In this document: in pieces, positions 150 to 59,948 of the stretch | How positions within the stretch are numbered: position 1 is the first letter of the stretch | Layout of the letters: each line of letters starts with the position of its first letter | Assembly (NCBI RefSeq): GCF_009258225.1 | Contig: NZ_CP043617.1 | Location: forward strand, 1,364,001-1,428,000 | Direction: 5' to 3' | DNA: 64,000 bases | Origin: Sulfurimonas lithotrophica | Lineage (GTDB): Bacteria; Campylobacterota; Campylobacteria; Campylobacterales; Sulfurimonadaceae | Notes under the pieces: generated by a model | The model's database searches: none | What the model saw: only the letters and a program-made list of their open reading frames with translations | What the model was told of the DNA's origin: nothing | Translations under genes and position numbers: made by a program

Positions 150-228
150 TAGTTGTTAACTTTATTTAACACTTTTGTAACACTTTAAAAATATACTTAC
201 ATAAATATTTTAAAGTTTAGGAAAGTAT
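150..228 (+). promoter_or_regulatory. Promoter region of the TonB/polyferredoxin operon, with phased TAAC repeats
   Basis: The leader holds a -10-like TATACT at 192-197 and a ribosome binding site AGGA at 219-222, six bases before the ATG at 229. Upstream, TTAAC at 156-160, TTAAC at 166-170 and GTAAC at 177-181 recur at 10-11 base spacing, and the nonamer TAACACTTT occurs at 167-175 and 178-186. Direct repeats phased to the helical turn are typical operators of OmpR/PhoB-type regulators. The identity of any regulator is unknown; no regulator gene is adjacent. Confidence 0.4.
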
Positions 229-2430
229 ATGAAAAAGATAACTGCTATATCTGTTGTATGTGCTATCGCCATAAGTACATACGCATCAGACTTAGGAACG
301 ATAAAAGTAGAGTCGTCAACTATTGATGATAAATTTGAAACAAAAAAAAGTGAAATCTCAAGTACTACAACCGTTAGCGGTGAGAAAGTTGACAAATCAC
401 ATATTTCAAATATTCAACAAATTCTTCAATCAATTCCCGGTATTACAACCGAATCATCGACGGGTGACAGTTTAAAAATACACTTAAGAGGTGTAGAAAA
501 TCAAATGTATATGGGTGAAAAACCGGGTGTTGCAGTTGTAATCGACGGTGTACCTGTGTTTGAGAGAACCGGTAAAGTAAATATAGACCTTGATAATATT
601 GAGAGTATAAAAGTTATAAAGGGTGGTGCTTCATATCTTTTTGGTGATGATGCATTATCGGGTGCTGTTATTATTACAACTAAAAGAGGGGCAAAATACA
701 ACCATAACTACGGTGCAGTTGAAGTGGGAAGCTACGGTTATAAAAAAGCAGTTGCCAGAACCGGATATGCAAACGATGATTTAAGCTTTCACGTTCAAGC
801 AAGCCAAAGATCGTCTGATGGTTATCATGAAGATTCAGATTATGAGACAAGTTATCTAAACGGTAAACTTCAGTATTATATTGATGATTCTTCAGATATT
901 AATGTAGGACTTGAATACTCAAAAAGAGAAAAAGACTCTCACGGTACTGTCGGAGGAGAGACACAAGCTAAAATCAACCCTGAGTCTATTTACACGGGTG
1001 ACCAAGATAGCCGTGACTATACAAGAAAATACGATGTTGAACTAATGAAAGCCTTTTTAACGTATTCAAAAGACTTTGATTATGGAGCAAACCTTTTAGT
1101 AAATACTTACATTTATACCGACACTACTGAGTTTATGTCTTCTCCTCAGACTAAAGATTCCAGCGGTAATAACGATGCTACTCTTACAGATGATAATTAT
1201 GTATATGATAATCACTACGAGCAAGTTCAAAAAGGTGTAAAAAGTGAGTATAGAGATTCGTTTAAAAACTCTGCAGCACTTCTAGGAGTTGATTTACGTG
1301 CGAATGAATACGAAAATAAAACCACATACAGAGCGGCACAAGCTTTAGTAATTTATGGCGGACCAATGGCAGGTGTATATCCTGATTATTATCAGCCGGG
1401 TGATTTTAAAAGTAATGATAAAACAGATGAAAACGTATATGCATTATACGGTGAATATAAATATGCATTTACGGATTCTATCAGTGCTACAACGAACTTA
1501 AGATACGACAAAATTAAACTTGACTATACTGATTCTGCTGCAAACAGCTTAAAAAAAGACTTTTCAGTTTATTCTTATAGAATTGGAATGAATTATCAAA
1601 TGAGTCAAAATTCTACACTGTTTTTAAACTATTCAACAGGCTTTCGTGCACCTACTATCAGCCAGCTTTTTGCAGGTGACGTAAGTACGTGGGGCTCGAC
1701 ACAAAATAATCCAAACTTAGACCCTGAAGAATCTTTTAACTATGAGATAGGTGTTAGAGCACTCATGAATAATATAAAATACGAAGCTTCCGTATTTCAA
1801 ATAGACAGAAAAGATTTTATTATGAAAACATCCGGAAACTATGGCGATACGGATACAAACGATATGTGGGATAATGTCGGTGGAGCTAGACATAGAGGAT
1901 TTGAATTATCTGCTGTTGGTAATATAATAGATTCGCTATCGTTTAATATGGCATATACATACTTAAGAGCTAAGTACACAAACTATAGAAATTTCGGTAT
2001 TACAATGGGTTCAGATGTTTATTTTCCTGTTTTTACACCTGCTCCTGTAATGACATACGATGCTACAGGAAATACAATCCCAAGAACTTCAAAACATAAT
2101 GTTAACCTTATTATGAACTATCAAGTTTTAAAAGATCTTACTTTAATGGCTGAAGTAAATGCAAAAAGCAAATATTATGCGGACGATCTAAACAAAATAG
2201 AAATAGCAGGTCACGGCATACTTAATTTAATGGCTACATATAATAAAAAACTCGGCATGTTTGATACAAGCTTCTTTGTTAGAGCTGACAACGTATTTGA
2301 TAAACAATATTATACTTCGGCAAGATCTAGTTCTGATAGAAACGAAGACGGTGTATTTAATGCTGAAGATTTATCAATTACGGTTAATCCGGGAAGAGTC
2401 TTAACGGCAGGGCTTGCTGCTAAGTTTTAA
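229..2430 (+). CDS. TonB-dependent outer-membrane receptor
   Basis: This is a TonB-gated outer-membrane channel for a scarce substrate such as a metal chelate. The 733 residues begin with a signal peptide (about 1-19, cleavage after STYA). A TonB-box-like stretch LGTIKVESS follows near residue 22, then a plug domain (about 40-155, with LRGVENQ, VVIDGVPVF and IESIKVIKGGASYLFG) and a 22-strand-type barrel ending in the terminal Phe expected for outer-membrane insertion. The barrel lacks the Met/His-rich tracts of copper receptors such as OprC/NosA, so the substrate is not evident. It heads a ten-gene run and is followed 16 bases later by exbB. The AGGAAAG ribosome binding site supports the ATG start. 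Confidence 0.93.
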   Translation: MKKITAISVVCAIAISTYASDLGTIKVESSTIDDKFETKKSEISSTTTVSGEKVDKSHISNIQQILQSIPGITTESSTGDSLKIHLRGVENQMYMGEKPGVAVVIDGVPVFERTGKVNIDLDNIESIKVIKGGASYLFGDDALSGAVIITTKRGAKYNHNYGAVEVGSYGYKKAVARTGYANDDLSFHVQASQRSSDGYHEDSDYETSYLNGKLQYYIDDSSDINVGLEYSKREKDSHGTVGGETQAKINPESIYTGDQDSRDYTRKYDVELMKAFLTYSKDFDYGANLLVNTYIYTDTTEFMSSPQTKDSSGNNDATLTDDNYVYDNHYEQVQKGVKSEYRDSFKNSAALLGVDLRANEYENKTTYRAAQALVIYGGPMAGVYPDYYQPGDFKSNDKTDENVYALYGEYKYAFTDSISATTNLRYDKIKLDYTDSAANSLKKDFSVYSYRIGMNYQMSQNSTLFLNYSTGFRAPTISQLFAGDVSTWGSTQNNPNLDPEESFNYEIGVRALMNNIKYEASVFQIDRKDFIMKTSGNYGDTDTNDMWDNVGGARHRGFELSAVGNIIDSLSFNMAYTYLRAKYTNYRNFGITMGSDVYFPVFTPAPVMTYDATGNTIPRTSKHNVNLIMNYQVLKDLTLMAEVNAKSKYYADDLNKIEIAGHGILNLMATYNKKLGMFDTSFFVRADNVFDKQYYTSARSSSDRNEDGVFNAEDLSITVNPGRVLTAGLAAKF

Positions 2431-2446
2431 TTAGAGAGTTATTGAG

Positions 2447-2890
2447 ATGGATATTGAACTTTTAAAAAATCTTGTCGATTACGGTGTAATTGGGCTTTTA
2501 GGTCTTATGAGTTTTATTGCTTTATGGTTTTGGGTTGAAAGAGTTTTATTTTATAAAACTTTGGATATCTCAAAATACAATACAAAAGAAGCTTTAGAGA
2601 TTGATGTTACAAACAATATTAACATCATCTCCACCTTTGGTTCAAATGCACCGTATATAGGTTTACTTGGAACAGTGTTTGGAATTATCATTACATTTTA
2701 TGTAATGGGACAAAGCGGTGATTTGGATGCAAAGATGATTATGACTTCATTGGCACTTGCACTAAAAGCTACTGCTATGGGCTTACTAGTGGCAATTCCA
2801 TCTATAATTTTTTATAACCATCTTAGCAGAAGAATAGAAGTAATACTTGCAAAATGGGATATCTATCAAAAGGAAAAACTTGCAAACTAA
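2447..2890 (+). CDS. exbB: ExbB/TolQ/MotA-family proton channel protein
   Basis: This is the inner-membrane component that, with ExbD and TonB, uses the proton gradient to power the receptor upstream. The 147-residue protein is short for ExbB. It keeps three membrane segments (about 12-32, 66-88 and 100-122), the SNAPYIGLLGTVFGI motif after the first cytoplasmic region, and LALALKATAMGLLVAIPS in the third helix. It starts 16 bases after the receptor stop and its 3' end overlaps the exbD start. The matching tonB gene is not adjacent but closes the operon at 12825, which suggests the genes in between belong to one functional unit. Confidence 0.92.
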   Translation: MDIELLKNLVDYGVIGLLGLMSFIALWFWVERVLFYKTLDISKYNTKEALEIDVTNNINIISTFGSNAPYIGLLGTVFGIIITFYVMGQSGDLDAKMIMTSLALALKATAMGLLVAIPSIIFYNHLSRRIEVILAKWDIYQKEKLAN

Positions 2891-3263
2891 AAAGTTTGAC
2901 TCTATAAACGTCGTACCTTTTATAGACATTATGTTGGTTCTTCTGGTAATCGTTTTGACGACTGCATCATTTGTGGCAAAAGGAATTATCCCCGTCGATT
3001 TGCCTGATTCTAAAAGTGCCGCTAAACAAGAAGATATAAAAAATCTTACTATTACTATCAAAAAAAACGGAGAGATTTTATTTGATAAAGAGAAGGTGTT
3101 AAAAAAAGATATTGAGAGTAAACTCTCTTCTTATAAAACAAAAACACCTATCCATATCAACTGTGATAAAGATGCGAAGTTTGATTTGTTTGTTGATTTA
3201 TTGGATATTTTAAAATTAAAAAATTTTAAAAACCTTGGAATTATTACGCAAAAAGATAAGTAA
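2880..3263 (+). CDS. exbD: ExbD/TolR-family protein
   Basis: This is the ExbD partner of the energy-transducing complex. It has a short cytoplasmic N-terminus, one membrane helix beginning with the diagnostic INVVPFIDIMLVLLVI (the membrane Asp needed for proton coupling is present) and a periplasmic domain ending near ITQKDK. The frame is open from a TTG at 2847. I prefer the TTG at 2880, which sits five bases after AGGA (2871-2874) and gives the usual short MQTKKFDSINVVPF start. On that choice it overlaps exbB by 11 bases, implying coupled translation. The gene family is certain; only the start is in doubt. Confidence 0.9.
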   Translation: MQTKKFDSINVVPFIDIMLVLLVIVLTTASFVAKGIIPVDLPDSKSAAKQEDIKNLTITIKKNGEILFDKEKVLKKDIESKLSSYKTKTPIHINCDKDAKFDLFVDLLDILKLKNFKNLGIITQKDK

Positions 3264-3267
3264 ACGA

Positions 3268-3927
3268 ATGGAATATGCAACATTTTTTTCAATTTTCATA
3301 ATTGGTCTCTCTTATGGGGCTACCGCATGTATGTTTTCCTGTATGCCTTTTTTAAGTCCGTTATTGGTAAAAAATTCAGGAAATTCCAAAGAAGCATTAA
3401 GTGTGATACTGCCTTTTAGTGCAGGAAGAATAGTCTCTTATACTTTTATAGCAATTATTGCATATTTAAGCTCGGCTTGGGTAAAACAGATGTTAAACAA
3501 CAATACGCTATTTAGCTTTATTTTAGGAATAAGTACTATCGGTATGGGTTTATACTTACTATATAAAAGCTATAAGCCTTCATTCTCCTGCGGACATACT
3601 ACATCAATAATAAAACAACCAAAACTAAATAAATTCGGTTTTTTTACTATCGGTGCAACGATGTCGATCAATCCGTGTGCACCTATAATGGCTCTTTTAG
3701 CCGTAGCTGCAAACAGCACTAATATATATAACACTATCGGTTTGGGAATTTTTTTCGGACTCGGGGCGGTTATATTTTCAATTTTATTTTACGGGTTTAT
3801 AGTTTCTAAACTTATCAATGGTTTATTACAACAATTTAGTTCATATAAACTCATAGTGGAAAGAACGGCGGCACTTTTACTTATTGTAGTAGGTGTGCTT
3901 GTTCTAAACGGTATTTTAATACTTTAA
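3268..3927 (+). CDS. DsbD/CcdA- or UreH-like six-helix membrane protein
   Basis: This membrane protein has about six helices and resembles the transmembrane domain of the DsbD/CcdA and sulfite-exporter/UreH-like superfamily. Two helix-start motifs face each other: SYGATACMFSCMPFLSPLLV near the N-terminus and SINPCAPIMALLAVAA in the second half. Each contains Cys and Pro, as in thiol-electron or metal-translocating members. A CGHT motif sits in the loop between halves. It could pass reducing equivalents across the membrane to Cys-containing partners such as the NosL domain next door, or move a metal ion. The ATG at 3268, four bases after the exbD stop, is chosen; a TTG at 3235 is also in frame. 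Confidence 0.8.
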   Translation: MEYATFFSIFIIGLSYGATACMFSCMPFLSPLLVKNSGNSKEALSVILPFSAGRIVSYTFIAIIAYLSSAWVKQMLNNNTLFSFILGISTIGMGLYLLYKSYKPSFSCGHTTSIIKQPKLNKFGFFTIGATMSINPCAPIMALLAVAANSTNIYNTIGLGIFFGLGAVIFSILFYGFIVSKLINGLLQQFSSYKLIVERTAALLLIVVGVLVLNGILIL

Positions 3928-3939
3928 CAAAGGTAAAAA

Positions 3940-6702
3940 ATGGTAAATTTTATAAAACGCGACAAAGACGATATTTATGCAAAGCCTATATTAGGCTTTT
4001 TTTTTAAAAATCAAAAATTTTTACTAACACTTAAATTAGTTGTCTTATTTATATTTTTATATGCAATATACTACGGATTTGCATATACGGGCAAAGATAA
4101 TAATTTTACATATGCAGTATTTTGGGGAATATTTTGGTCTTTATTTATGGTCATAACCCTTCCGACTTTGGGTCGTATATTTTGCGGTATTTGTCCACAC
4201 GGTTTTATGGGAAAATATATCACTAAATTCGGTTTAAAAAAGACGATGCCAAAGTGGATGCAAAACCGCTATATAGGAATACTACTGCTTGTTATAGGAT
4301 GGTGGGGCATCTACTATATGTTTCCAAACCTTTACAGAACACCGCTAGGAACAGCTACTCTTTTTACGGTTATGACTTTAATATCTTTTGTAGTATATTT
4401 TTTATATAAAGATATGAGCTATTGTAAATACATTTGTCCAATTGGAACCTTGACACGTGCATATTCCAAACTCTCCTTTACATGGCTTGGCACATACAAA
4501 AGTGCCTGCACGGATTGTAAAACTTTTGAATGTGCTACGGCTTGTCCGTACAACTTAAAACCTTTTACATTTGATAACAGAAATTCTATGACGGATTGTA
4601 CCTTGTGTATGGATTGTTCAGCTGCTTGTGAGGCTATAAGCTTTAAAACTAAGAAACCATCTTTTTCACTCTTTTCTAAATTTCAAACTCTAAAAGCTGA
4701 AGTATGGGCATTTATTTTAATTTTGGCATCTATTCCAATTACAATGTCGTTTCATCACGGAATCGGAAGAAGTAATGCCGCTAACGATATGATTTGGTCA
4801 AAAACAGCCGAGTTTTTAAAAAATTATATAAGTTTTGGTTCTGTAGATGCGGTAGGTCTGTTTGCCTTTCTTTATGCTCTTGTTTTTACGATAATAGCTG
4901 CACTAATCGGTATGTTTATAGCTTCTAAAATTTTACAAAAAGATTTTAAAAAAATATTTTACGATCTTGGATATTCATATGCACCTTTATTTATTTTAGG
5001 CTCAATCGCACACTCTTTAGAGACTTTTTTTATGCGTGGTTATGAACGTATAGTCGAGGGCTTTGCACAGGCTTTTGGTTTTAACGTAGATGTAGCATCT
5101 CTTGCGAATAGAGGTGATAGTTGGTTACATATGTTTGGTATTTTAAAATGGGTAGCTATAGCATGGGCACTTATAATACTTTACAAAAGAATGAAACTAT
5201 TGGATGCAAATAAAACACGCAAGATTTTAGCCTATCCTTTTGCCGCATCTTTGATTATATTTTTTCTTAGCGTTAACCTATACAGAGGATATATTATAGA
5301 CACATACGGTAGAGCTTCAGGCGGTCATGGCGGTCATTCAAATCATGGCGGAGCAATGTTTCAGAGTGTATCTAAAGATAAAGCTATTATTTTACAATCA
5401 GGTAATGATAAACACTTATGTAGCAACTGTTCTATGAATCTAGCAAAATTTTACAAGACAAACCATGCTGCACATTTAAAAGATAAAACAAAACAGTACT
5501 GTTCTATACACTGTTTGAGTGAAGCTAAATATATCAAAAAAATGCCGCTTGAAAATTTAAAGGTAGTCAATGTTTCAAGCCTTAAATTCATAGATGCTAC
5601 AAAAGCGTTTTATGTAGTCGGCAGTAAGAAAAAAGCAACTATGAGTGAAGTAAGCAAGTATGCATTTGCTTTAAAAGCAGATGCTATGAACTTTGTCAAA
5701 AGATATAAAGGGAGAGTTGTAAATTTCGAAGAAGCCCAAAAAATTGCTATGAGAGACTTTGATTCACCGGCAAAAGATATGGCTAAACAACCTTCATTTT
5801 CCAGTGTAGTATATTTTAGCGACAAAAATCCGATTCCTAAAAAAGCAAAAGGCTCCCACGGCGGACACTCTCACGGTGGATGGGGCAAAGTTCCAAGTAA
5901 AAAGGTATGGCCTTTATTTGAAGACGAATCAAACAAGCTGAACTGTTTTGATGACATTAAAGCTGAGTTATACCTTCTAGATGCAAACCTTAGTACGTCA
6001 AAATTAAAACAATCAAGAGACAGAGGATGTAAAAGCGTAAGTTTTCAGATGCCTGAAAACGGATACTACAATCTATTTTACGTGGATAGAAATATTGATA
6101 ATAAAACTCTATATATTACAACAAGCAAATATGAATATATGAGATTTAACCACAGTAACGATGCAGTATATGATAATGAAAAAATGGCAGCCCATAGCAT
6201 AAAAGAAGTACCTTTTGATATTTTAAGATTAAGAGAAGAAGGTGAGACATTTTATCATCGCCTCTATTCTGGCGAAAAAATAAGATTTAAAGTATTACTT
6301 GACTCAAAAGAGATTAAAGGGGCAAATATAACTTTATCTACAAAAACAGGCTGGTCAAAAACTATAAAAACAGACGAAAACGGAGTTGCAGTTTTTACAC
6401 TGATTCAAGATTATTTTCCTGATTGGAATAAATTTGACAGAAGACATCAAAACAAGTTTTTAATAACTGCAACATATACAAAAGATGCCAAAGGTGAATA
6501 CGAATATGAAGATTACGAAAATATAAAATATACATCTACATATTCAAGTATTTATTATCCCGGTGACAGTTCATATAAGTCCTATGCTTACGGTTTATTA
6601 GCGGCAATATTTACTATGATTTTAAGCGGATTTATTATTTACATCTATAGAAAAAGAAGAGAACAACCCTTTAAAGAGGTAAAATTTAATGAAAAAAATT
6701 AG
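3940..6702 (+). CDS. Polyferredoxin-NosL-DUF4198-like fusion membrane protein
   Basis: This 920-residue protein combines modules normally encoded separately. The N-terminal 450 residues form a NapH/CcoG-like membrane polyferredoxin: CGICP at 82-86, CKYICP at 162-167, CTDC...CATACP at 190-203 and CTLCMDCSAAC at 220-230, between about eight helices. A His/Gly-rich linker (about 460-471) leads to a periplasmic NosL-like domain with CSNCSM (494-499) and CSIHC (521-525), as in copper-binding NosL. A second His-rich stretch (about 639-646) precedes a beta-sandwich resembling DUF4198 (about 755-850), a family linked to nickel and cobalt uptake. The C-terminal helix is 885-903. Likely roles are transmembrane electron transfer plus periplasmic metal binding. 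The last 14 bases overlap the next gene. Confidence 0.85.
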   Translation: MVNFIKRDKDDIYAKPILGFFFKNQKFLLTLKLVVLFIFLYAIYYGFAYTGKDNNFTYAVFWGIFWSLFMVITLPTLGRIFCGICPHGFMGKYITKFGLKKTMPKWMQNRYIGILLLVIGWWGIYYMFPNLYRTPLGTATLFTVMTLISFVVYFLYKDMSYCKYICPIGTLTRAYSKLSFTWLGTYKSACTDCKTFECATACPYNLKPFTFDNRNSMTDCTLCMDCSAACEAISFKTKKPSFSLFSKFQTLKAEVWAFILILASIPITMSFHHGIGRSNAANDMIWSKTAEFLKNYISFGSVDAVGLFAFLYALVFTIIAALIGMFIASKILQKDFKKIFYDLGYSYAPLFILGSIAHSLETFFMRGYERIVEGFAQAFGFNVDVASLANRGDSWLHMFGILKWVAIAWALIILYKRMKLLDANKTRKILAYPFAASLIIFFLSVNLYRGYIIDTYGRASGGHGGHSNHGGAMFQSVSKDKAIILQSGNDKHLCSNCSMNLAKFYKTNHAAHLKDKTKQYCSIHCLSEAKYIKKMPLENLKVVNVSSLKFIDATKAFYVVGSKKKATMSEVSKYAFALKADAMNFVKRYKGRVVNFEEAQKIAMRDFDSPAKDMAKQPSFSSVVYFSDKNPIPKKAKGSHGGHSHGGWGKVPSKKVWPLFEDESNKLNCFDDIKAELYLLDANLSTSKLKQSRDRGCKSVSFQMPENGYYNLFYVDRNIDNKTLYITTSKYEYMRFNHSNDAVYDNEKMAAHSIKEVPFDILRLREEGETFYHRLYSGEKIRFKVLLDSKEIKGANITLSTKTGWSKTIKTDENGVAVFTLIQDYFPDWNKFDRRHQNKFLITATYTKDAKGEYEYEDYENIKYTSTYSSIYYPGDSSYKSYAYGLLAAIFTMILSGFIIYIYRKRREQPFKEVKFNEKN

Positions 6703-7669
6703 AGACTTCATAAACAAAGCAGACATAAAAAAGTTTCGTTTTTGGTTACAACTATTTTTCTTTGTCATCTTTATATACGGCGGATACTTTGCTATTAATT
6801 TAGGAAATTCAATACCGGTATTTTCATGCGGTTACGATAGAGAAGTCGGTGGAATGTGTTATTTTCTACCGCTTCAACACCAATTGGCGAGACCTCTGGA
6901 TGTACTCTTTAGCGTTGCCAGCATCTCGGTTCTTATTGGGTTTATAACATTTTTACTATGGTTTATCGTATTTAACAAAGCTTGGTGTGGATATGCCTGT
7001 CCGCTTGGTACTATGCAAGACTGGCTGACAGGACTTAGAAAAAAACTCGGCATCAGATACAGCACATATACACAGCCTCAATTTGATAAGTTAAAAAAGA
7101 TAAAGTATATTATGCTTGCCATCGTTATTTTATCTCCTATCGCAGTTGGAATGGGTCTTCTTGGGGGTGAATGGAGGACGGCATTTTGTAGCATCTGTCC
7201 GGGAAGAATGATAACACCTTTATTTGTAGGAGATACATCTCAATGGGCACTTGATTTTTCTACTAAAAGTGCGATGATTTTAACTTCCTTGGGTCTAATT
7301 TTTACAGGTTTATTCGTAGTCGGTTCATTTATCAAAAAACGCTTTTTTTGTTTCTTTTGCCCGATGAGTGCAATGCATTATATTTTTAGCGATGCAGCAC
7401 TTTTAAAACTAAAAAAAGACGGTGATAAATGTACAAAATGCGGTGATTGCTACAATGTTTGCGATATGCAGATAAAAGATATTGCAGATGATGTTAAAAG
7501 CACAAATATTTTAAGAGATGACTGCATTATGTGCTTAAAATGCGTAGCAGCTTGCCCTGAAGACGATGCTTTGCATGTGGATCTTGTAAATTATCCTATT
7601 TTTAAATCAACAAAAGGCGGGTTTGTTAAAAGAATGGAAATACAAGAGCTGGAGAAAAAAAATGACTAA
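6689..7669 (+). CDS. NapH-like membrane-bound polyferredoxin
   Basis: This 326-residue inner-membrane Fe-S protein is of the NapH/NosR-C type. It has about four to five helices, Cys motifs CGYACPLG (100-107), CSICP (167-171) and CFFCP (221-225) near membrane ends, and a C-terminal double [4Fe-4S] ferredoxin domain (Cys 248/251/254/258 and 279/282/285/289). Two further Cys, 47 and 57, lie in the first periplasmic loop. Family members carry electrons between the quinone pool or periplasm and cytoplasmic partners. The ferredoxin domain next to an ATP-dependent Fe-S reductase makes it a plausible electron donor to that reductase (inference). The gene overlaps both neighbours, by 14 and 8 bases. 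Confidence 0.88.
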   Translation: MKKIRDFINKADIKKFRFWLQLFFFVIFIYGGYFAINLGNSIPVFSCGYDREVGGMCYFLPLQHQLARPLDVLFSVASISVLIGFITFLLWFIVFNKAWCGYACPLGTMQDWLTGLRKKLGIRYSTYTQPQFDKLKKIKYIMLAIVILSPIAVGMGLLGGEWRTAFCSICPGRMITPLFVGDTSQWALDFSTKSAMILTSLGLIFTGLFVVGSFIKKRFFCFFCPMSAMHYIFSDAALLKLKKDGDKCTKCGDCYNVCDMQIKDIADDVKSTNILRDDCIMCLKCVAACPEDDALHVDLVNYPIFKSTKGGFVKRMEIQELEKKND

Positions 7670-8936
7670 AAGAGCCGGACACAAAATAGAGACTCCTAAA
7701 GAGAAACAAAATCGTCATAAAGCGATGGAAGCCATAACGGTACTTGAAAAGATAAAACATGAGTTTAAAAAGCCTCCAGAAGCAATGGAATATTTTTATG
7801 ATTTGTATGAGAGTGTACATTGCAAACACGAACCTTTACATAAAGATAAAGTAAAAGTCGGAACTATGTGCATCCAAGTACCATCCGAAATAGTTTATGC
7901 ACTGGATGCAGTACCTATTAGGATGTGTAACGGTTTTTATACAGACGATGAGATAGGAAGCGACTTATTACCTTCAAAATCATGTCCACTCGTAAAAGCT
8001 ACCGTAGGACTTTTTGCATCCGATAATTTTTCCGATAAACCGGATGTTGTAGTATCTCCTACTACCTGTGACCAAAAAGCAAAATCGGGCGCTATTATAG
8101 AAGATATGGGCTATAGCATCTTCGATATGGAATTTCCAAGAACAAAAGAGAGTGAAGAAAGCCGTGAATACTGGAGACGCAGTGTAAGAAAATTTACAAA
8201 AGAGTTATCAAATGATTTGGGAAAAAAGATTACTAAAAAAGCTTTAAGAGAATCTATCAAAAAGGTAGGTTTGGCACAGCATCTGTACCATAAACTAAAT
8301 ATCTTACGAAAAAATGAAAATTCTCCAATTTTGGGGCTTGATATGTTTTTAGTTACAAATGCTTTTTTCTTTGACAAAATAGACAACTGGATTAATGCGG
8401 TGGATACACTGGTAAAAGAGTGTGAACAAAGGGTTAAGGATGAGTTTAACGCCGCACATAAAAGAAGTCCGAGAATCGTATATACGGGTTCACCTCCGAT
8501 ATTTCCAAATCTAAAAATTCCTTTAATTATAGAACAATCAGATGCAATAATAGTTGCAGATGAGACTTGCTCGTCCAACAGAATGTTTAACGACATGGTA
8601 AGTGTAGATGAGTGGTTTGTAAACGATATGATAGACGGTGTCGCAGATAGATATTTAAAAGGTTGCACCTGCCCTATCTTTACAAAAAATGATGACAGAA
8701 AAAGAAGAATACTGGACTTGGTAAAAGAATATAACGCCGACGGTGTAGTGTATCAGGCATTTGCAGGTTGTCAAGTTTACGAGATGGAACAAAGATCGGT
8801 TTTAGAGGCTATGGAAAAAGAAGGGATACCGATAATTTATCTTGAAAGTGACTATTCTCCAAGTCATCTTGGACAATTAACAACAAGGATAGAAGCTTTT
8901 ATAGAGTCTCTTAAAAATAGAAGAAGGAAAAAGTAA
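7662..8936 (+). CDS. HgdB/FldC-family (2-hydroxyacyl-CoA dehydratase-like, double-cubane type) Fe-S protein
   Basis: This cytoplasmic 424-residue protein belongs to the 2-hydroxyacyl-CoA dehydratase D-component family, which includes the double-cubane [8Fe-9S] protein of Carboxydothermus and E. coli YjiM. Conserved Cys sites are visible at SKSCPLVK (C108), TTCDQK (C136), DETCSSNR (C303), KGCTCP (C335, C337) and AGCQVYEMEQR (C370), with extra Cys at 54, 70, 89 and 254. There is a single subunit gene plus an activase, rather than the paired subunits of true dehydratases, which favours the double-cubane branch. No CoA-ester genes are nearby, so dehydratase activity is unlikely. The ATG at 7662 follows GGAG; a TTG at 7623 would give 13 extra residues that look like noise. 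Confidence 0.85.
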   Translation: MTKRAGHKIETPKEKQNRHKAMEAITVLEKIKHEFKKPPEAMEYFYDLYESVHCKHEPLHKDKVKVGTMCIQVPSEIVYALDAVPIRMCNGFYTDDEIGSDLLPSKSCPLVKATVGLFASDNFSDKPDVVVSPTTCDQKAKSGAIIEDMGYSIFDMEFPRTKESEESREYWRRSVRKFTKELSNDLGKKITKKALRESIKKVGLAQHLYHKLNILRKNENSPILGLDMFLVTNAFFFDKIDNWINAVDTLVKECEQRVKDEFNAAHKRSPRIVYTGSPPIFPNLKIPLIIEQSDAIIVADETCSSNRMFNDMVSVDEWFVNDMIDGVADRYLKGCTCPIFTKNDDRKRRILDLVKEYNADGVVYQAFAGCQVYEMEQRSVLEAMEKEGIPIIYLESDYSPSHLGQLTTRIEAFIESLKNRRRKK

Positions 8937-9745
8937 TGCAGTATTTTGCAGGAATAGATATAGGCTCGACAGCCATAAAAATCGCACTCGTAGATGAAAA
9001 TAAAAATCTTGTAGCACATAAAATAAGTGCAAGCGGAAGTATGTTTTATAAATATGCAAAACAAAGTTTAAGTGAACTTTTACGTGAATATAATATTGAT
9101 GAAAGTGATTTAGTATATACGGTTGCTACGGGCTATGGCAGGAAACTTTTTAAAGAAGCAGATGAAAACATAAGTGAAATTACGGCAAATGCACTTGGAG
9201 CGAGGGCTGCTGCAAAAGATAAATGTGAGATAAAGACCATTATTAATATAGGCGGGCAAGATTCTAAAGCGATTTCACTCGATAGCGAGGGAAATGTGGT
9301 AAATTTTGCTATGAATGACAGATGTGCGGCAGGAACAGGGAAATTTTTAGACGTAGTAGCGATGAACTTAGAGCTTGAAGTCGATGAATTAGGAGAATAC
9401 CATTTTAAATCAAAGGGAACTCCTTTAGCTATTAACAGTACCTGTGCCGTATTTGCAGAATCCGAAATAATAGGTCTTCTTGGAAACGATAATTCCGTCG
9501 AAGACATAGTTGCCGGGGTACATTACTCTATAGCAAAAAGAATTATCAAACTTGTAAAGAGAGTCGGTATAAAAGAAAATATCTATTTTGACGGTGGACC
9601 TGCTCTTAATGAAGGTTTGGTTAATGCGATTGAAAATGAGCTCGGAAAAGAGATATTTATACCTGAATTTCCACAAATAACTACTTCGTACGGAGCGGCT
9701 ATTTTAGCACACGAATCTTATGAATATGAAAATAAAGCGAGATAA
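8936..9745 (+). CDS. BadF/BadG/HgdC-family ATPase (activator of the double-cubane/dehydratase-like protein)
   Basis: This 269-residue ASKHA-fold ATPase drives electrons from a reduced ferredoxin into its Fe-S partner at very low potential. Visible motifs are GIDIGSTAIK (phosphate loop 1, residues 6-15), IGGQDSKAI (105-113) and FDGGPALN (phosphate 2). The two Cys that bridge one [4Fe-4S] cluster between subunits are present in NDRCAAGTG (C130) and NSTCAVF (C170). Its ATG overlaps the stop of the partner gene by one base, so the two are translationally coupled. The domain is complete and of normal length. Confidence 0.92.
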   Translation: MQYFAGIDIGSTAIKIALVDENKNLVAHKISASGSMFYKYAKQSLSELLREYNIDESDLVYTVATGYGRKLFKEADENISEITANALGARAAAKDKCEIKTIINIGGQDSKAISLDSEGNVVNFAMNDRCAAGTGKFLDVVAMNLELEVDELGEYHFKSKGTPLAINSTCAVFAESEIIGLLGNDNSVEDIVAGVHYSIAKRIIKLVKRVGIKENIYFDGGPALNEGLVNAIENELGKEIFIPEFPQITTSYGAAILAHESYEYENKAR

Positions 9746-9748
9746 TTA

Positions 9749-12700
9749 ATGTTTAACAAGGTGCTTAAATTTTTTATTGAAAACTATAAAATAAATTATA
9801 CGTTATTTTTTCTAATTTTTGCACTTGGAATATATGCATACAACCATATACCAAAAGAGATATCCCCTACGATTGAACCAAATTCTGTATCTATAAGAGG
9901 CTCTTACAACGGGGCTTCGGTTGATACTCTTAATACAATGGCCGTTCAAGAGATAGAAGATGAAGTAAAAAATATAATCGGTGTGGATAATATAACATCC
10001 GTTATTTCTCCGGGTAGATTTACCGTAATACTTGAACTGCAAAAAGGTGTAAACAAAACAAACTTTGTAAGAGACGTTGAAGATGCGCTGGCACTTATAA
10101 GACAAAATTTACCAAGTGATATGGATGATCCGGTAATTAGAGGAGTACCACATTCAAGAAGCATCATGCATGTATCTATGTTATCTTCCGAAGTACCAAG
10201 AAGTGAGCTAAAAAAGTTATCCAAAAAATTTAAAAGCAGACTTCTTTCCATAAAAGATGTATCTGATGTCACTATATTCGGAGACTCCGATCTTTTTTAT
10301 GAAGTATTGATAGATGAAAAAAAAGTAAATGCTTATAATCTGTCTTTAGACGATACCGTAAGAATATTTTCTGAAATCTCCTATATATTTCCTTTGGGAA
10401 TGATAGACAATGCCAAAGAACAATACTATATATCTTTACAAAACGATAAAAAAATTTCCGAACAGTTTGAAAATACGATTATTAATATTAACGACCAACA
10501 GATTGCCATAAAAGATATTGCAAAAGTAAAAAAACGTTATGAAGATTCATCAACTCTTGCGAGCATGAACGGAAGCAATTCTATAACACTTGCAGTATCT
10601 CAAAATCCAAAAGGCGATGCTATTTTAATAGCAAAAAAAATTAAAAAACTTATCTCTGATATGAGTATTAAAGGTGTTGAATTTAATATAAGAATGGATA
10701 AATCCACAGTTATAAAAGACAGACTTAACATTGTAATATCAAATATCTTATTTGGCATTATTTTAATAACACTTTTAACGGCTATACTGATAAATATACG
10801 CATAGCTTTTATAATAGCGTTAGGAATACCTACTTCATTTGTAATAGGTGCTATATATTTTTACTTTACGGGACATAGCATCAATGTAAACTCACTTATA
10901 GGTGTACTAATTGCTATAGGTATCATAGTTGACGATGCTATAGTGGTAAGTGAAAATATACAACAATATATTGAAAAAGGCCATTCTGCAAAAGAAGCTG
11001 CATATTTAGGTACAAAAGAGGTGGCAAAACCGGTAACCATAGCATCTTTGACTACCCTATTTTCATTTATTCCCTTACTGATGCTAAGTGGAAAACTCGG
11101 CGAGATAATACAGCTTATCCCTATTGCATTTTCCGCTTTGGTAATTGCTTCGCTGATAGAATCATTTATATTTTTACCTATTCATGCCACGCATACTCTC
11201 TCTGTAAATTCAAAAACACTCTCATGGGAGAAGGTAAATCTACTATATGCTAAAGCCTTAAAACAAATCGTAAAATATCAAAAAAGTTTTTTACTTATTT
11301 TTTTGATAATAGTACCCGCATTAATTTTTTACGGTATAAAAAGTTCAAAGTTTCAAATGTTCAAACCTTTTGATACTACGTCTATAAATATTACATTTAA
11401 AGCAAATCCTACAACTACACTTGAAGAATCTTTAAAGATTGTACAAACTTTAGAGAAAAACATTTTAGAAAATAAAGATAGATTTTTTGTAAAACACGTC
11501 AGTTCTACGGCAGGTTATAGAAGAAGTGCTACAGGCTCAGCTGAGATGTATCCATATGTCGGATATATATCTATAGAACTTCAAAAAATGAAGCCTATGA
11601 ACTTTGTCGATAAATTTATAACACCATATCTAAGTTTTTATTATGATCCAAAAGGGAGAATTAGAGACAAATCTTCACAAGATATTTCTCAAGATTTAAG
11701 AACTTGGCTAAAAGAGCAAGGCTATAAAAAAAGATTTAAACTTAGTAACCTGATGGTAGTTGAGAATAAAATGGGAAATACTAAAGCCGACATTAGAATA
11801 GGTATTGTAAGCGATGACTATAAAAAGGCACTAAAAGCAATCAATGATATTGAAGAAGCTTTTTCAAAGATAAAGGGTATTAAATATTACGGAGATAATG
11901 TAAAACTCGGCATCGATGAAGTTAAGCTAAAAGTAAATAGTTACGGTGAAGCTCTCGGTGTTACGGAAAAATATGTAGGAAACTATATATCTCAACTATA
12001 TTTATCAAAAAAAATCGGAACAATCTATGACAATAATGAACTAGTAGATGTAAAAATAAAATCCGTCAACTTTAGTAATGATTTGGAGAGTTTTAAATCT
12101 TTGCAAATCCCTTTAAAAAATAAAACATATGTCAGATTAAAAGATATATGTGAATTTAAAAAAGTACAATCATTAGAAAAACTTGTAAAAGATGACGGAA
12201 AAATAAATTTTTATGTTTTTGCAAACGTAGATCCGTCTGTTATAACTCCCGGTGAAGTAGTTGATGAAATAATTCCAATAACAAACAGACTAGAAAAAGA
12301 AGGACTTAAAATAAAGTTTAAAGGTGAAAAGGAACAAACAAAAACATTGCAAACCGAAATGGTACTGGCATCTGTTCTAGCTATTATTTTGATATTTATC
12401 TCAATACTTTATCTATTTAATTCTCTTAGGGAGACACTAATTGTTATGTCTGTTATACCATTTTCTTTGCTTGGTGTATTTATAGGTCATTATCTTATGG
12501 GGCTTAATATATCACTGCCATCTTTGATAGGTGCACTGGGACTTGCAGGAGTTATTGTAAATGATGGAATTATAATGATGGCAACACTCAATAAAGCAAC
12601 AGATAAAAACAATATATATACACTTGCTGCAAGAAGATTCAGACCAATCATTCTTACCTCAGTTACGACTATAATAGGTTTATCTTCATTGATATTTTTT

Positions 12701-12832
12701 GCAACTGCAGAGGCTGTATCTTTTCAACCACTTGCAGTTACTTTAGGTTTTGGTTTACTATGGGGTACTATTTTAAACCTGTTTTACCTGCCTACAATGT
12801 ATAATTTTTTAAAGAGTTTCAGCCATGAATAG
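9749..12832 (+). CDS. RND-superfamily efflux transporter (inner-membrane pump)
   Basis: This 1027-residue proton-driven RND pump has twelve predicted helices in the AcrB/MexB arrangement. There is one N-terminal helix (about 14-32), a large periplasmic loop, a helix block with the proton-relay pair D395-D396 in IAIGIIVDDAIVVSENI, a second periplasmic loop and a final helix block with LGLAGVIVNDGIIMMA. It is about full length for hydrophobe or metal RND pumps. It starts three bases after the ATPase stop, and its end overlaps tonB by eight bases. No adaptor or outer-membrane channel is in this operon. HlyD-like (18693) and TolC-like (14542) genes in the convergent operon may supply them. The substrate is unknown. 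Confidence 0.92.
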   Translation: MFNKVLKFFIENYKINYTLFFLIFALGIYAYNHIPKEISPTIEPNSVSIRGSYNGASVDTLNTMAVQEIEDEVKNIIGVDNITSVISPGRFTVILELQKGVNKTNFVRDVEDALALIRQNLPSDMDDPVIRGVPHSRSIMHVSMLSSEVPRSELKKLSKKFKSRLLSIKDVSDVTIFGDSDLFYEVLIDEKKVNAYNLSLDDTVRIFSEISYIFPLGMIDNAKEQYYISLQNDKKISEQFENTIININDQQIAIKDIAKVKKRYEDSSTLASMNGSNSITLAVSQNPKGDAILIAKKIKKLISDMSIKGVEFNIRMDKSTVIKDRLNIVISNILFGIILITLLTAILINIRIAFIIALGIPTSFVIGAIYFYFTGHSINVNSLIGVLIAIGIIVDDAIVVSENIQQYIEKGHSAKEAAYLGTKEVAKPVTIASLTTLFSFIPLLMLSGKLGEIIQLIPIAFSALVIASLIESFIFLPIHATHTLSVNSKTLSWEKVNLLYAKALKQIVKYQKSFLLIFLIIVPALIFYGIKSSKFQMFKPFDTTSINITFKANPTTTLEESLKIVQTLEKNILENKDRFFVKHVSSTAGYRRSATGSAEMYPYVGYISIELQKMKPMNFVDKFITPYLSFYYDPKGRIRDKSSQDISQDLRTWLKEQGYKKRFKLSNLMVVENKMGNTKADIRIGIVSDDYKKALKAINDIEEAFSKIKGIKYYGDNVKLGIDEVKLKVNSYGEALGVTEKYVGNYISQLYLSKKIGTIYDNNELVDVKIKSVNFSNDLESFKSLQIPLKNKTYVRLKDICEFKKVQSLEKLVKDDGKINFYVFANVDPSVITPGEVVDEIIPITNRLEKEGLKIKFKGEKEQTKTLQTEMVLASVLAIILIFISILYLFNSLRETLIVMSVIPFSLLGVFIGHYLMGLNISLPSLIGALGLAGVIVNDGIIMMATLNKATDKNNIYTLAARRFRPIILTSVTTIIGLSSLIFFATAEAVSFQPLAVTLGFGLLWGTILNLFYLPTMYNFLKSFSHE

Positions 12833-13523
12833 ATACTTTTCATCTTTTGTAATCAGTCTTTTTGTTTATGTTAGTTTATTTGCCGGTGCAGTAGTTTTTT
12901 TTAACAAAAACGATACTTTTTCCGATAAAGAGATAAAAAAACCTAATGTTGTCACTGTATGCATGGTAGCCCCTCAACCAAAGCTTATAAAAGAGCCTAT
13001 TAAAAAGAAGATAGTAAAAAAGAAAAAAGTTGTAAAAAAGAAAAAACCTATCAAGAAAAAAATAATAAAAAAAGAGTTACCTAAACCTTCACAATCTTTG
13101 AAAAAAGAAGAAATTATTAAAGAAAAAATCGTCAAAGAAGAAGTTGTAAAAGAACAGGTAGCTATGGAACAACCCGAAATAAAAAAAACTCAACAAGTAG
13201 TTGCAAAAGAAAAACCATATATAAATCCGGATGAAATAAAAGCGAAACAAAATCTATTTTTTACAGAACTTAGAAATAAAATCAATAAAAACAAATCATA
13301 TCCAAGACGTGCAAGAAGAAGAGGGATAGAGGGTAATGTAGAAGTTAAATTTTTTCTACAAAGTGATGGAAGTGTAAAAAGTATCGAGTTTGTATCAGGT
13401 AAAAATATCTTTAAAAAATCAGTAATAGAAGCTATAGAAAACAGCTTTCCGGTTGAAGTAGATAAAACACTATTTAGCTTTCCAAAAGAGTTTAAAATAT
13501 CTATAGAATATATATTAAGTTGA
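12825..13523 (+). CDS. tonB: TonB-family energy transducer
   Basis: This is the TonB protein that links the ExbB/ExbD motor to an outer-membrane receptor. The 232 residues comprise an N-terminal membrane anchor (about 6-25), a long Lys/Pro/Glu-rich periplasmic spacer (about 45-135, with KKKVVKKKKP-type repeats) and a C-terminal TonB domain (about 140-232) with the YPRRARRRGIEGNVEVKFFL signature. It overlaps the RND gene by eight bases. Its 3' end overlaps the convergent methyltransferase gene by nine bases, so it closes the operon that the receptor opens at 229. Confidence 0.92.
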   Translation: MNRYFSSFVISLFVYVSLFAGAVVFFNKNDTFSDKEIKKPNVVTVCMVAPQPKLIKEPIKKKIVKKKKVVKKKKPIKKKIIKKELPKPSQSLKKEEIIKEKIVKEEVVKEQVAMEQPEIKKTQQVVAKEKPYINPDEIKAKQNLFFTELRNKINKNKSYPRRARRRGIEGNVEVKFFLQSDGSVKSIEFVSGKNIFKKSVIEAIENSFPVEVDKTLFSFPKEFKISIEYILS

Positions 13524-14540
13524 TTTGTCTTTTCGAAACCTTATCATCTTAAACCTTTCGCCTAAGAAGTTGGGCATTATAAGCATTTTTGCTTTTTCCA
13601 ACTCTTGTTTATAGATTTTTTCATCTACATTTTCTTTTAACATTTCAAGTAAATCAAGTATTCCCATATCGACAAGTGCTACCATCTGCGCTTTGAATTC
13701 TATAAACTTTATACCTGCTTCCTCATATGCATCTTTGACATGCTCAAAAGTTACATCATAAGTTATATCTGTAGTACCAAAAAGCTCAGCTCTGTTTATT
13801 TGCTTACCGTTTTCATCCTCTTTTTGAAAAAAAGGTATAACATCATGTTTTTTATATACACGAAGTGAAAAGTCCGGACGTGCCTGCATCTCGCCATAAT
13901 CAAAGCTCATAAACTCAAACTTATCACAAGTTGCTTGCATCTCTTTTGCAAACTCTTCATAACCTAGAGCTATTTCACCGCGGTCTTTATGATATTTTTT
14001 AGCTTTGTTATCTACCCATTTGTTATCTACATCAAACTCTACATTATGATTATCTTCAACTCTGGCAGTTTTACCTTTATAGTAAAGTTCACAAGGAAAC
14101 GCATCAAATATCTCATTTGCTATAAAAAAAGCATTTTCACACTTTAACTCACTTAAGGATTTGTAATGTGTTAGATGCACGGCATCTGAAAAGCTTTCTT
14201 GGAAGTAGTTGCGTTGAAATTCCTGTAATTTATCAAAACGCTCTATTATTACGAACTTTAGACTCTTTAAAAGTTCAGGACGAAGTGTATATATAAACTG
14301 TACTACATCCGCTAAAAAATAACCGTGATGTGCACCAATCTCACATATTACTGCATCTTTATTCAAAAATCCTTCATCTATTAAAGAGATAATATGTTTT
14401 GCTATGCTACCTCCGAAAAAACGACTTGTACTTACAGCAGTGTAAAAATCTCCCTCTTTCCCTATTTGTTTATAAGATGCATAGTAGCCATTTTTACCAT
14501 ATAACCATTCGGTCATATATTCACTAAATTTTTTATCCAT
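13515..14540 (-). CDS. MidA/NDUFAF7-like SAM-dependent methyltransferase (DUF185)
   Basis: The 341-residue protein resembles the MidA/NDUFAF7 (COG1565) methyltransferase family, whose mitochondrial member methylates an arginine of complex I. Visible features are the N-terminal FSEYMTEWLYGKNGYY and GDFYTAVSTSRFFG signature, a SAM-binding ICEIGAHHGYFLADVV motif (about 81-96) and FIANEIFDAFPCE after it. It is the last gene of the minus-strand run that starts with hlyD, one base from the TolC gene. Its stop overlaps the opposing tonB stop by nine bases. The substrate in bacteria is not established. Confidence 0.82.
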   Translation of the reverse strand: MDKKFSEYMTEWLYGKNGYYASYKQIGKEGDFYTAVSTSRFFGGSIAKHIISLIDEGFLNKDAVICEIGAHHGYFLADVVQFIYTLRPELLKSLKFVIIERFDKLQEFQRNYFQESFSDAVHLTHYKSLSELKCENAFFIANEIFDAFPCELYYKGKTARVEDNHNVEFDVDNKWVDNKAKKYHKDRGEIALGYEEFAKEMQATCDKFEFMSFDYGEMQARPDFSLRVYKKHDVIPFFQKEDENGKQINRAELFGTTDITYDVTFEHVKDAYEEAGIKFIEFKAQMVALVDMGILDLLEMLKENVDEKIYKQELEKAKMLIMPNFLGERFKMIRFRKDKST

Positions 14541-56809: not shown

Positions 56810-57748
56810 TTACAAAAACACACCATTTTTCAAATAGTAAACTACAACATATCCACTTACCAAAAGTACAAACAACAAGTTTGATATAAATGAAAGTTTA
56901 AAAAATTTATCTTTAAAAAGAACTATAAGACCGTTAAATGTACCTATAAATAAAAGTGCATAAATTAGATAACCGACATAGTAATAATCACTCTGCAAAT
57001 AACAAAACGGGCAGTGATGGCTAGGGAGTTCATATATATAAGTCCCAAAGAACATAATCATGGAGATTATCGAAACTATAATAAAGATTAAGTTTGAGAT
57101 TGCATAAACATACTTAGATTTAAATACATATGCAAAAGTTATTAAAGCAAAATTGGCATAAAATACACTTACTAAAATATTATTATCGATTGAGAATAAA
57201 CTAGATACTATAGAGTCCGATGTAGATGAGTAAAGTGTCCCACAACACGATACCAGCTTATCTATCTCAAAATTGTAAAATGTATAAAATTCTATTAGTA
57301 TCTCAGATAAAAACAAAGCAAACAACACTATAAAAAGTGCAAATTTCATCTTAATATACGGTTGCTTTTCATTTTTTACATCTTCCGTGTTTAAAACAAG
57401 CCAGAAAGCAAAAAGATATATATTTAACACTTTAAGGGTAATAAGCATCGTTCCATAATCAGTTGCGTCCAGCACTCCTGCTCCACACATAGCACCGCTT
57501 AATACGTTTGAGAGTTTATCGAGTGTAAATATAAAAAATAAAAAAAGAGGAACTTTAACTATAAATATATATTTAATTATAGTAGTCGCAAGATAGCTTT
57601 GACGCTCTAGCGAATACTGTAATGGATCGGATGAGTTCTTATCGTATTTTAGGTATATTTTTACACTAAGATACAATGCAATCAAACCAAATACAAAAAA
57701 TAAAAAATCCAGTATATATATGGTTAATATCTCAGGTGAGAGTATCAT
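56810..57748 (-). CDS. Polytopic membrane protein with paired Cys motifs (ABC operon partner)
   Basis: I do not recognise a named family. The 312-residue protein has about eight helices. Loops facing the same side carry Cys motifs: MCGAGVLD (about 87), VSCCGTLYSSTSD (about 166) and SHHCPFCYLQSDYYYVGY (about 245). The CPFC motif after two His resembles metal- or thiol-active sites. It overlaps the ABC ATPase gene by four bases and is the last gene of the four-gene operon. It could handle a cysteine-linked or metal-linked substrate of the transporter (inference). Confidence 0.75.
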   Translation of the reverse strand: MILSPEILTIYILDFLFFVFGLIALYLSVKIYLKYDKNSSDPLQYSLERQSYLATTIIKYIFIVKVPLFLFFIFTLDKLSNVLSGAMCGAGVLDATDYGTMLITLKVLNIYLFAFWLVLNTEDVKNEKQPYIKMKFALFIVLFALFLSEILIEFYTFYNFEIDKLVSCCGTLYSSTSDSIVSSLFSIDNNILVSVFYANFALITFAYVFKSKYVYAISNLIFIIVSIISMIMFFGTYIYELPSHHCPFCYLQSDYYYVGYLIYALLFIGTFNGLIVLFKDKFFKLSFISNLLFVLLVSGYVVVYYLKNGVFL

Positions 57749-59588: not shown

Positions 59589-59884
59589 TTAATATTTCCG
59601 TTTTTTGCGTTCATTATGATAAAGCTAGACGGAAAGTACTCACGTAAAATACCGTCATCTTTGTATATTTCAAATGTTGAAGAAAGACTTCTATGTCTGA
59701 TAAACGTAGCTTCTGTGGATATTGCCAAATCCGGTAGGCCCAATAGAGAAACAAACTCTTTTTTAGCTTCTATTTGAGATTTTGAGACAGCCTTAGTTTT
59801 ATCTAAATAAAGATACTCAACTACTAAAGCCATAATCAAAAATACAAACGTATATATACTTAATTTTGCTTTTTTATTTAACAA
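59585..59884 (-). CDS. Small membrane-anchored periplasmic protein of the ABC operon
   Basis: This 99-residue protein has one N-terminal helix (about 9-27) and a periplasmic domain with LPDLAISTEATFIRHRSLSS and FEIYKDDGILREYFPSSFII. It is the first gene of the ABC operon, and its TGA overlaps the permease ATG. I recognise no family. It might be the substrate-side partner of the permease. Confidence 0.7.
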   Translation of the reverse strand: MLNKKAKLSIYTFVFLIMALVVEYLYLDKTKAVSKSQIEAKKEFVSLLGLPDLAISTEATFIRHRSLSSTFEIYKDDGILREYFPSSFIIMNAKNGNIK

Positions 59885-59948
59885 AAATTACCCTTTAAAA
59901 TAAGGGGTTTATTTTATCAAACTAGTATTAAATGTTTGTTAAATATAT

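Follow-up and report, generated by a model that had tools for sequence, protein, structure and literature searches.

A conserved TonB-receptor operon with a predicted ATP-driven double-cubane module, probably linked to copper acquisition, in Sulfurimonas lithotrophica and other Campylobacteria

The window analysed here is a stretch of 64,000 nucleotides from Sulfurimonas lithotrophica (assembly GCF_009258225.1, contig NZ_CP043617.1, positions 1,364,001 to 1,428,000 of the forward strand), near the start of which ten genes on one strand run from a TonB-dependent receptor to tonB (229–13523). These genes form a real, conserved and probably copper-linked acquisition operon that contains a predicted ATP-driven iron–sulfur module built around a double-cubane cluster protein (DCCP), an arrangement for which no precedent was found. 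The most informative element is a direct-repeat box at 166–185, missed in the initial annotation, a reading of the DNA made from the letters and their open reading frames (ORFs). On the strength of this box the operon is likely to belong to a copper-type regulon, while the fuller reading, in which TonB-dependent metal acquisition of the copper type would be coupled to an ATP-powered reductive module, we regard as evenly balanced on the sequence evidence.

All ten ORFs lie where the initial annotation had placed them and either overlap or are separated by no more than 16 nt, the receptor and exbB/exbD leading and tonB closing the run; the DCCP gene starts inside the NapH-like gene with an overlap of 8 nt, and the next gene after tonB is convergent (minus strand, 13515–14540). 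As to internal promoters, a promoter and terminator scan gave 65 promoter-like sites against 63.9 in shuffles, which is shuffle level. The order of the run is far beyond chance, and its core of TonB receptor, DUF4198-like protein, NapH-like iron–sulfur membrane protein, DCCP and HgdC-type ATPase is present at 30 places spread over 28 of 397 genomes, which are a sample of the class Campylobacteria and not the whole class. Close DCCPs are those with an identity of at least 58%, every other DCCP-like match being at or below 34%. The genome searches score first-look candidates only (at most five per genome in the NapH-like search and two in another), tabulated matches are those among the matches listed, and many named loci (L) and G-numbered loci are the same contigs, as with L025 and L086. 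The predicted co-occurrence as one unit across Campylobacterota is thereby borne out, and recurrence in 28 genomes excludes a gene order unique to this strain.

Counting genes within a same-strand run with gaps below 450 nt, the 30 DCCP places hold a NapH-like gene at 30, a DUF4198-like gene at 29, a TonB receptor at 28, an adjacent HgdC-type ATPase at 28, a DsbD_2-like gene at 27, the N-terminal part of the fusion protein at 21, ExbB and ExbD at 13 each, TonB at 12, an RND permease at 8 and NosL at 5. The thirtieth DUF4198-like gene is present beyond the gap at L078, and the two runs that lack an ATPase (L080, L085) come from genomes (G254, G288) in which another copy of the operon does include it. 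The RND permease had been read as the exit for the product or chelator; it falls outside the core, one of its eight loci (L087) being a 22% match upstream of the receptor, and none of the ten genes encodes an RND adaptor. At 8 of 30 loci, export is a weak proposal, and as a core step it was rejected.

The NapH-like protein (identity at least 50%) was found at 33 places, all within the 28 genomes that carry the close DCCP and covering every one of them, and in none of the 369 others. A search of named genomes with the fusion protein returned 49 loci, mostly from Sulfurimonas, Sulfurovum and Arcobacter and nearly all metagenome-assembled genomes, the taxon-labelled ones all being Campylobacterota; relatives of its N-terminal part also occur on an archaeal plasmid and a Deinococcus plasmid, with uninformative neighbouring genes. 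Short operons of receptor, fusion N-part (with or without NosL) and TonB are frequent, and the genes on either side of the short form at L032 are those that flank the long form in the window, L004 and L064; the DCCP module has therefore been gained or lost at one chromosomal spot. Three loci of one genus (L073, L075, L078) carry two receptor–DUF4198–NapH sets before one DCCP, and L028 has two DUF4198–NapH sets, one receptor between them and one DCCP, a sharing that would be expected if DCCP were a common electron source. The operon is also carried by a 395-kb plasmid of Sulfurovum mangrovi (L103:9815-23594), where the first receptor is annotated as two genes.

The box at 166–185 is the only exact match in the genome to TTAACA-N5-KTAACACTT, a pattern drawn from an alignment that includes the window copy. 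An unbiased dyad count found TAACA-N6-TAACA in 43 of 65 non-redundant promoters (71 less six that were more than 80% alike), whereas 20 Markov samples averaged 0.0. Scored as TTAACA-N5-TTAACA, the box upstream of 66 of the 71 receptor operons, long and short alike, reaches 10 of 12 or more, and upstream of 60 it reaches 11 or more, the 71 promoters including near-duplicates and one OprC-like receptor (L069, score 9). Allowing two mismatches, the S. lithotrophica genome has 45 matches against 20 in the control; 34 lie inside ORFs and 11 are intergenic, of which eight have a same-strand gene within 300 nt. The units behind these eight are the ten-gene operon, a receptor–PepSY_TM pair, the OprC-like receptor, a response regulator–kinase pair, a 99-aa protein with an FtsX-type ABC system, two paired NosL genes, a membrane protein that is uncharacterised and an ORF of 76 aa. 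Six of the matches differ at one position or none; four of the six are intergenic and belong to the first four of these units.

In 26 of 28 genomes the OprC-like receptor has the same box upstream at a score of at least 11, a level reached in 8 of 410 background upstream sequences; NosL genes have it at that level in 11 of 20 loci, five of the 20 being misparsed. The operon is flanked by the OprC-like receptor in L069 and L071. In L005 its neighbours are NosL, kinase and regulator genes, together with relatives of the FtsX-type permease (68%) and of the 99-aa protein (56%). Kinase and regulator pairs 35–39% identical to the box-bearing pair lie near the operon in L018, L025/L086 (one contig), L088, L091 and L097. 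Two of the eight box-preceded units of the S. lithotrophica genome deserve mention on their own account. The box-preceded OmpR-type regulator and kinase (L165:2178-4324), followed by a small secreted-looking protein, are a candidate regulator of the whole set, and the TonB receptor and PepSY_TM pair (L157:3-2751, minus strand), under a one-mismatch box, resembles the CrtA/CrpH arrangement discussed below; elsewhere, as in L080 (72% identity), receptors of this type belong to DCCP operons.

Because the box is shared with an OprC-type receptor and NosL genes, copper-type acquisition is the favoured function. The OprC-like receptor L160 has TonB-copper (TIGR01778) as its best model, at 204.4 bits against a cut-off of 472.45 and the best of five matches, and its six matches in the PDB are all OprC. 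The copper ligands of OprC are Cys143, Met147, His323 and Met325, a CxxxM-HxM set, in the available part of the published account (PMC8610252), and all 29 OprC-like receptor sequences keep them. In G219, G221 and G225 the match to the OprC-like receptor is followed on its own strand, 362–520 nt further on, by the start of a nosZ match. The initial annotation had listed copper, nickel, iron and molybdenum, with acetylene or azide, as candidates; the regulatory evidence speaks for copper, nickel being the other possibility, and the remainder find no such support. Names of receptor families were discarded as a guide to substrate, since the window receptor and ten others all score below curated cut-offs.

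Turning to the iron–sulfur module, the DCCP homologue scores 348.8 bits with NF040772 (curated cut-off 350; next family 83 bits) and aligns with structures 6eno and 7yyl over residues 38–418. Its Cys70, Cys89, Cys108, Cys136, Cys303, Cys337 and Cys370 have counterparts in the 6eno alignment, and none of the seven varies among 46 sequences. The [8Fe-9S] ligands of BzdN are Cys36, Cys73, Cys100, Cys263, Cys293 and Cys327; five of them align with DCCP Cys70, Cys108, Cys303, Cys337 and Cys370, and Cys100 is one residue off Cys136 in an ungapped stretch, read by eye. Six ligand cysteines for a predicted [8Fe-9S] cluster are thus present. The ATPase keeps Cys130 and Cys170 in 44 sequences. In the text available from a 2025 paper, the [8Fe-9S] cluster of BzdN is thought to act as an electron relay or store, and the physiological relevance of the reactions of double-cubane proteins is called unclear (PMC11971306). 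A second, distant DCCP-like family (about 29–34% identity) occurs in other Campylobacteria, among them G224, G006 and G167.

The NapH-like protein scores 78.7 bits with TIGR02163, far below the cut-off of 213.05, and three matches elsewhere in the genome exceed that cut-off. Judging the helices from sequence, Cys47, Cys57 and His64 fall between predicted transmembrane (TM) helices 1 and 2, and Cys167 and Cys170 between helices 3 and 4, while Cys100, Cys104, Cys221 and Cys224 lie on the other side of the membrane; all are invariant in 51 sequences, which also show two ferredoxin motifs. The N-terminus is presumably inside, as for NapH, which would make Cys47, Cys57, His64, Cys167 and Cys170 periplasmic. 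This extra set is absent from the two canonical NapH proteins of the same genome that were compared, a third locus (L109) having been read in the wrong frame and left aside. The protein would then be a relay with an additional iron–sulfur or metal site on its periplasmic face. Units of receptor, His-rich 272-aa protein with a C-terminal TM helix and NapH-like protein also occur without a DCCP of their own (L076:2369-4181, L079:13546-15358), their NapH-like proteins keeping the extra cysteines.

In the fusion protein, the NosL domain of the initial annotation is upheld both by its Pfam score (57.5 against a cut-off of 24) and by its fold (7og7, Z 10.7, 28% identity over 114 residues). The DUF4198 assignment fails by sequence (21.6 against a Pfam gathering cut-off of 34) and stands by fold, the best matches being Zcp with Zn, Cu or Co (Z 17.6–18.4 over 196–201 residues, root-mean-square deviation 2.8–3.0), followed by the Ni-bound DUF4198 protein 9gcb (Z 16.2), with unrelated rows at Z 7.6 or less. 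A sequence profile of this part found nothing credible in the PDB, and fold comparison alone helped. The AlphaFold2 model of the whole fusion has a mean predicted local distance difference test score (pLDDT) of 70; residues 651–870 are mostly at 79–94, and the ferredoxin-type segment 178–249 is below 50. In fusion numbering, alignments show invariant His273 and His358 among further helices of the N-terminal part and an invariant His738 in the C-terminal part. The DsbD_2-like protein keeps Cys32, Cys36, Cys119 and Cys148 in 48 sequences (numbered from TTG 3235), and its CxxxC pair resembles that of thiol-redox relatives.

These components suggest the following route. A two-component system acting at the TTAACA box would switch on the operon together with the OprC-type receptor, the NosL chaperones and the receptor–PepSY pair, the regulator and its signal being proposals. 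The receptor, driven by ExbBD–TonB as its family suggests, would bring a metal complex into the periplasm. In the cytoplasm the HgdC-type ATPase would charge DCCP with electrons of very low potential, as in the characterised DCCP system, and DCCP would hand these electrons on to the NapH-like protein. The cysteine sets of that protein, one cytoplasmic and the extra one periplasmic, could relay them outward across the membrane if they hold clusters in the predicted topology. Parallel routes may run through the iron–sulfur segment of the fusion and through a CcdA-like thiol pathway. In the periplasm the metal would be reduced and freed, caught by the DUF4198-like domain and, where present, NosL, for both of which the folds are shown and the function is proposed, and passed to copper enzymes. 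The RND pump, where present, might conceivably clear the ligand. The combination of TonB import with a low-potential reductive module and metal-binding domains, put forward in the initial annotation, is supported by this analysis.

What is tentative is the direction of the electrons. An outward supply, from ATPase through DCCP and the NapH-like protein to the periplasm, is a possibility that we put forward with reserve, and so is the stronger form in which an ATP-driven outward pump, its NapH-like relay bearing clusters at both faces of the membrane, uses electrons below ferredoxin potential to strip copper from TonB-imported complexes there. The initial annotation had drawn the opposite course, from polyferredoxin through ATPase to substrate. 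Under the same regulon, DCCP might be a cytoplasmic enzyme that destroys an imported ligand, such as an isonitrile or other unsaturated chelator, brought in by the DsbD_2-like protein or another carrier, with the NapH-like protein feeding electrons to the ATPase. The presence of the DsbD_2-like protein in 27 of the 30 loci would suit such a scheme, but its four invariant cysteines, two in the CxxxC pair, are kept as in thiol-redox relatives and none of the ten genes encodes an inner-membrane ABC importer. Outward flow is favoured for the latter reason, and also because the NapH-like protein and the close DCCP are confined to the same 28 genomes, because DUF4198 and NapH sets repeat while the DCCP is shared, and because quinol-level electrons are too weak to feed a ferredoxin-type donor. 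The extra invariant cysteine set of the NapH-like protein, predicted to be periplasmic, makes outward flow likelier than inward flow, and destruction of the ligand by DCCP is in our estimate doubtful.

The remaining alternatives concern the metal and the place of DCCP in the operon. Nickel, or cobalt, handled by a TonB/DUF4198 system with reductive release, is unlikely. It draws on IsDUF4198, which binds Ni best and whose relatives neighbour TonB receptors and NikR in the available portion of its description (PMC12537917), and on Zcp structures solved with Zn, Co and Cu according to their PDB titles. Against it stand the box shared with OprC-type receptors and NosL genes and the fusion of NosL to the same protein in the window; moreover, to our knowledge nickel is not normally imported by reduction. 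It is less probable still that the DCCP pair is a passenger module that serves housekeeping or redox stress and happens to be co-transcribed with a metal operon. The related-receptor operons without DCCP, and the long (window, L004, L064) and short (L032) forms at one chromosomal spot, would fit this, but the NapH-like gene accompanies DCCP in the run at all 30 places, the two proteins share their 28 genomes, and the genes overlap in the window. An ordinary ferric-siderophore system is very improbable indeed, even though the best NCBIfam match of the receptor is TonB-siderophor (193.5 bits, below the cut-off of 223.5). With one E. coli-type consensus, no Fur-like site clearly better than shuffles was found in the 71 upstream regions (smallest fraction 0.15), whereas Fur-like matches in the genome, counted per strand, number 16, with 4 in the control. 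The iron reading was rejected on this ground, and the box before these operons is a different one, common to copper-type genes.

Returning to copper acquisition with an outward reductive module, several observations weigh against it. The operon's own receptor has no TIGR01778 match at E ≤ 0.001, the box scores 9 or less in 5 of the 71 receptor promoters, and the OprC-like promoters of 2 of the 28 genomes lie under the threshold. NosL is found in only the five DCCP runs counted above. Nitrous oxide (N2O) reductase occurs in 15 of the 28 DCCP genomes and in 113 of the 369 others, a difference that is suggestive only and confounded by kinship, and the enzyme was set aside as the single client. 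The main counter-indication is that the characterised DUF4198 protein prefers Ni and is not stabilised by Cu, so far as the accessible text of that study goes (PMC12537917). For the module itself, the AlphaFold2 model of the NapH-like protein has a mean pLDDT of 48 and was left unused, and seven further NapH-like matches at 34–39% identity take in five genomes without a close DCCP. Among 49 related receptors (690–800 aa, more than 33% and up to 77% identical; tblastn), 34 have a DCCP at the locus and 13 lack one, the other two loci (L008, L044) being cut by contig ends. As related receptors and distant NapH-like proteins occur without it, DCCP would be at most a booster, and an obligatory role in ligand handling was rejected.

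Table 1. Features of the window, with positions counted from its first letter
Feature	Positions	Strand	Basis and remarks
Direct-repeat box TTAACACTTTTGTAACACTT	166–185	+	11-bp period; predicted response-regulator site; ends about 44 nt before the receptor gene
TonB-dependent receptor	229–2430	+	Pfam/NCBIfam; plug His85 and Met95 invariant in family (50-sequence alignment)
ExbB2	2447–2890	+	TIGR02805, 180.4 bits, over cut-off
ExbD	2847–3263	+	PF02472 over cut-off; TIGR02804 113.6 bits, below cut-off 123.45
DsbD_2/CcdA-like membrane protein	3235–3927	+	Pfam; 48-sequence alignment; in 27/30 loci
Fusion protein (920 aa; NapH-like + NosL + C-domain)	3940–6702	+	Pfam, NCBIfam
Fusion, N-terminal part	3940–5349	+	Membrane protein; CxxCP/CxxxCP motifs; 2x[4Fe-4S] ferredoxin-type segment
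Fusion, NosL copper-chaperone domain	5350–5784	+	Pfam and fold; optional in relatives
Fusion, C-terminal part	5785–6699	+	His-rich linker, DUF4198-like domain (predicted periplasmic), C-terminal TM helix
NapH-like iron–sulfur membrane protein	6689–7669	+	Extra predicted-periplasmic Cys47, Cys57, His64, Cys167, Cys170
DCCP homologue	7662–8936	+	NF040772; ATG 7662 (open frame from 7623)
HgdC-type ATP-dependent electron activator	8936–9745	+	TIGR00241 (CoA_E_activ), 236.1 bits against cut-off 125.4
RND permease	9749–12832	+	Pfam; optional, in 8/30 loci
TonB	12825–13523	+	Pfam; in 12/30 loci
Probable second regulon member	57745–59942	-	Box 59923–59942 with two mismatches
99-aa membrane protein	59585–59884	-	In probable second regulon member
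FtsX-type permease	58410–59588	-	In probable second regulon member
ABC ATPase	57745–58452	-	In probable second regulon member
NosL protein gene	63039–64000, runs off window	-	First gene of the pair preceded by box G000:C1:1428906 (two mismatches)

Apart from these features, the 36.6-kb contig G000:C2 (L219, L227, L228) carries one 20-base site near both of its ends that occurs once more in the main contig; the sites lie inside ORFs of 426–433 aa, and may mark a repeated element or a contig-end repeat.

Parts of the system resemble those already described. The DCCP and ATPase of structures 6eno and 7yyl, which we take to be from C. hydrogenoformans, match the operon pair in the DCCP, over its residues 38–418 and in seven cysteines, and in having an HgdC-type partner, but the pair described here is linked to TonB-dependent uptake by a receptor, to a fusion protein that binds metal by prediction and to a putative relay in the membrane. 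NapH/MauN quinol dehydrogenases (TIGR02163) likewise have four predicted TM helices, CxxCP/CxxxCP motifs and a 2x[4Fe-4S] C-terminal segment, whereas the protein described here scores far under the family cut-off and has four more cysteines and one more histidine, predicted to face the periplasm. With OprC/NosA and NosL the genome shares a receptor under the same box that keeps CxxxM-HxM and a NosL domain fused within the operon; the operon's own receptor lies outside the OprC family. E. coli yjiM/yjiL is an annotated pair of double-cubane reductase and activator, but it is about 31% identical and has no TonB or metal-uptake genes annotated beside it. We know of no precedent for an ATP-powered reductase in metal uptake. 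Among the papers listed by the literature searches (10 of 13 and 10 of 1,313 in two of the lists, with subscription papers outside the coverage), none was seen from its listing to deal with a double-cubane protein beside TonB or copper genes or with the cluster in Sulfurimonas, and the claim that no described system has this gene set accordingly stands within that coverage. The closest parallel is CrtA/CrpH of Bordetella, where, in the available parts of the reports, a TonB receptor lies beside an inner-membrane protein proposed to reduce copper periplasmically, sometimes with ExbBD/TonB and under copper-starvation control (PMC12914433, PMC13038864). The reductase candidate there is a haem PepSY_TM protein, while here an iron–sulfur NapH-like protein is combined with an ATP-driven DCCP, NosL and DUF4198. 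None of the ten genes has a PepSY_TM match in Pfam, and the separate receptor–PepSY pair of the genome is the one with the one-mismatch box.

A receptor paired with a suspected periplasmic copper reductase is thus a theme already in print, as far as the CrtA/CrpH reports are available. Should electrons indeed be driven outward in the present operon, a free-standing double-cubane protein would gain its first physiological role, and the release of a metal by ATP-powered reduction would be a new principle in nutrient uptake. Since the DCCP gene lies in a conserved operon under a box of copper genes, its role can be tested by metal starvation and a single deletion. The box itself marks out a candidate regulon for copper acquisition in Campylobacterota, genomes with N2O reductase among them, and the whole suggests that some bacteria spend ATP to push a very strong reductant towards a captured metal.

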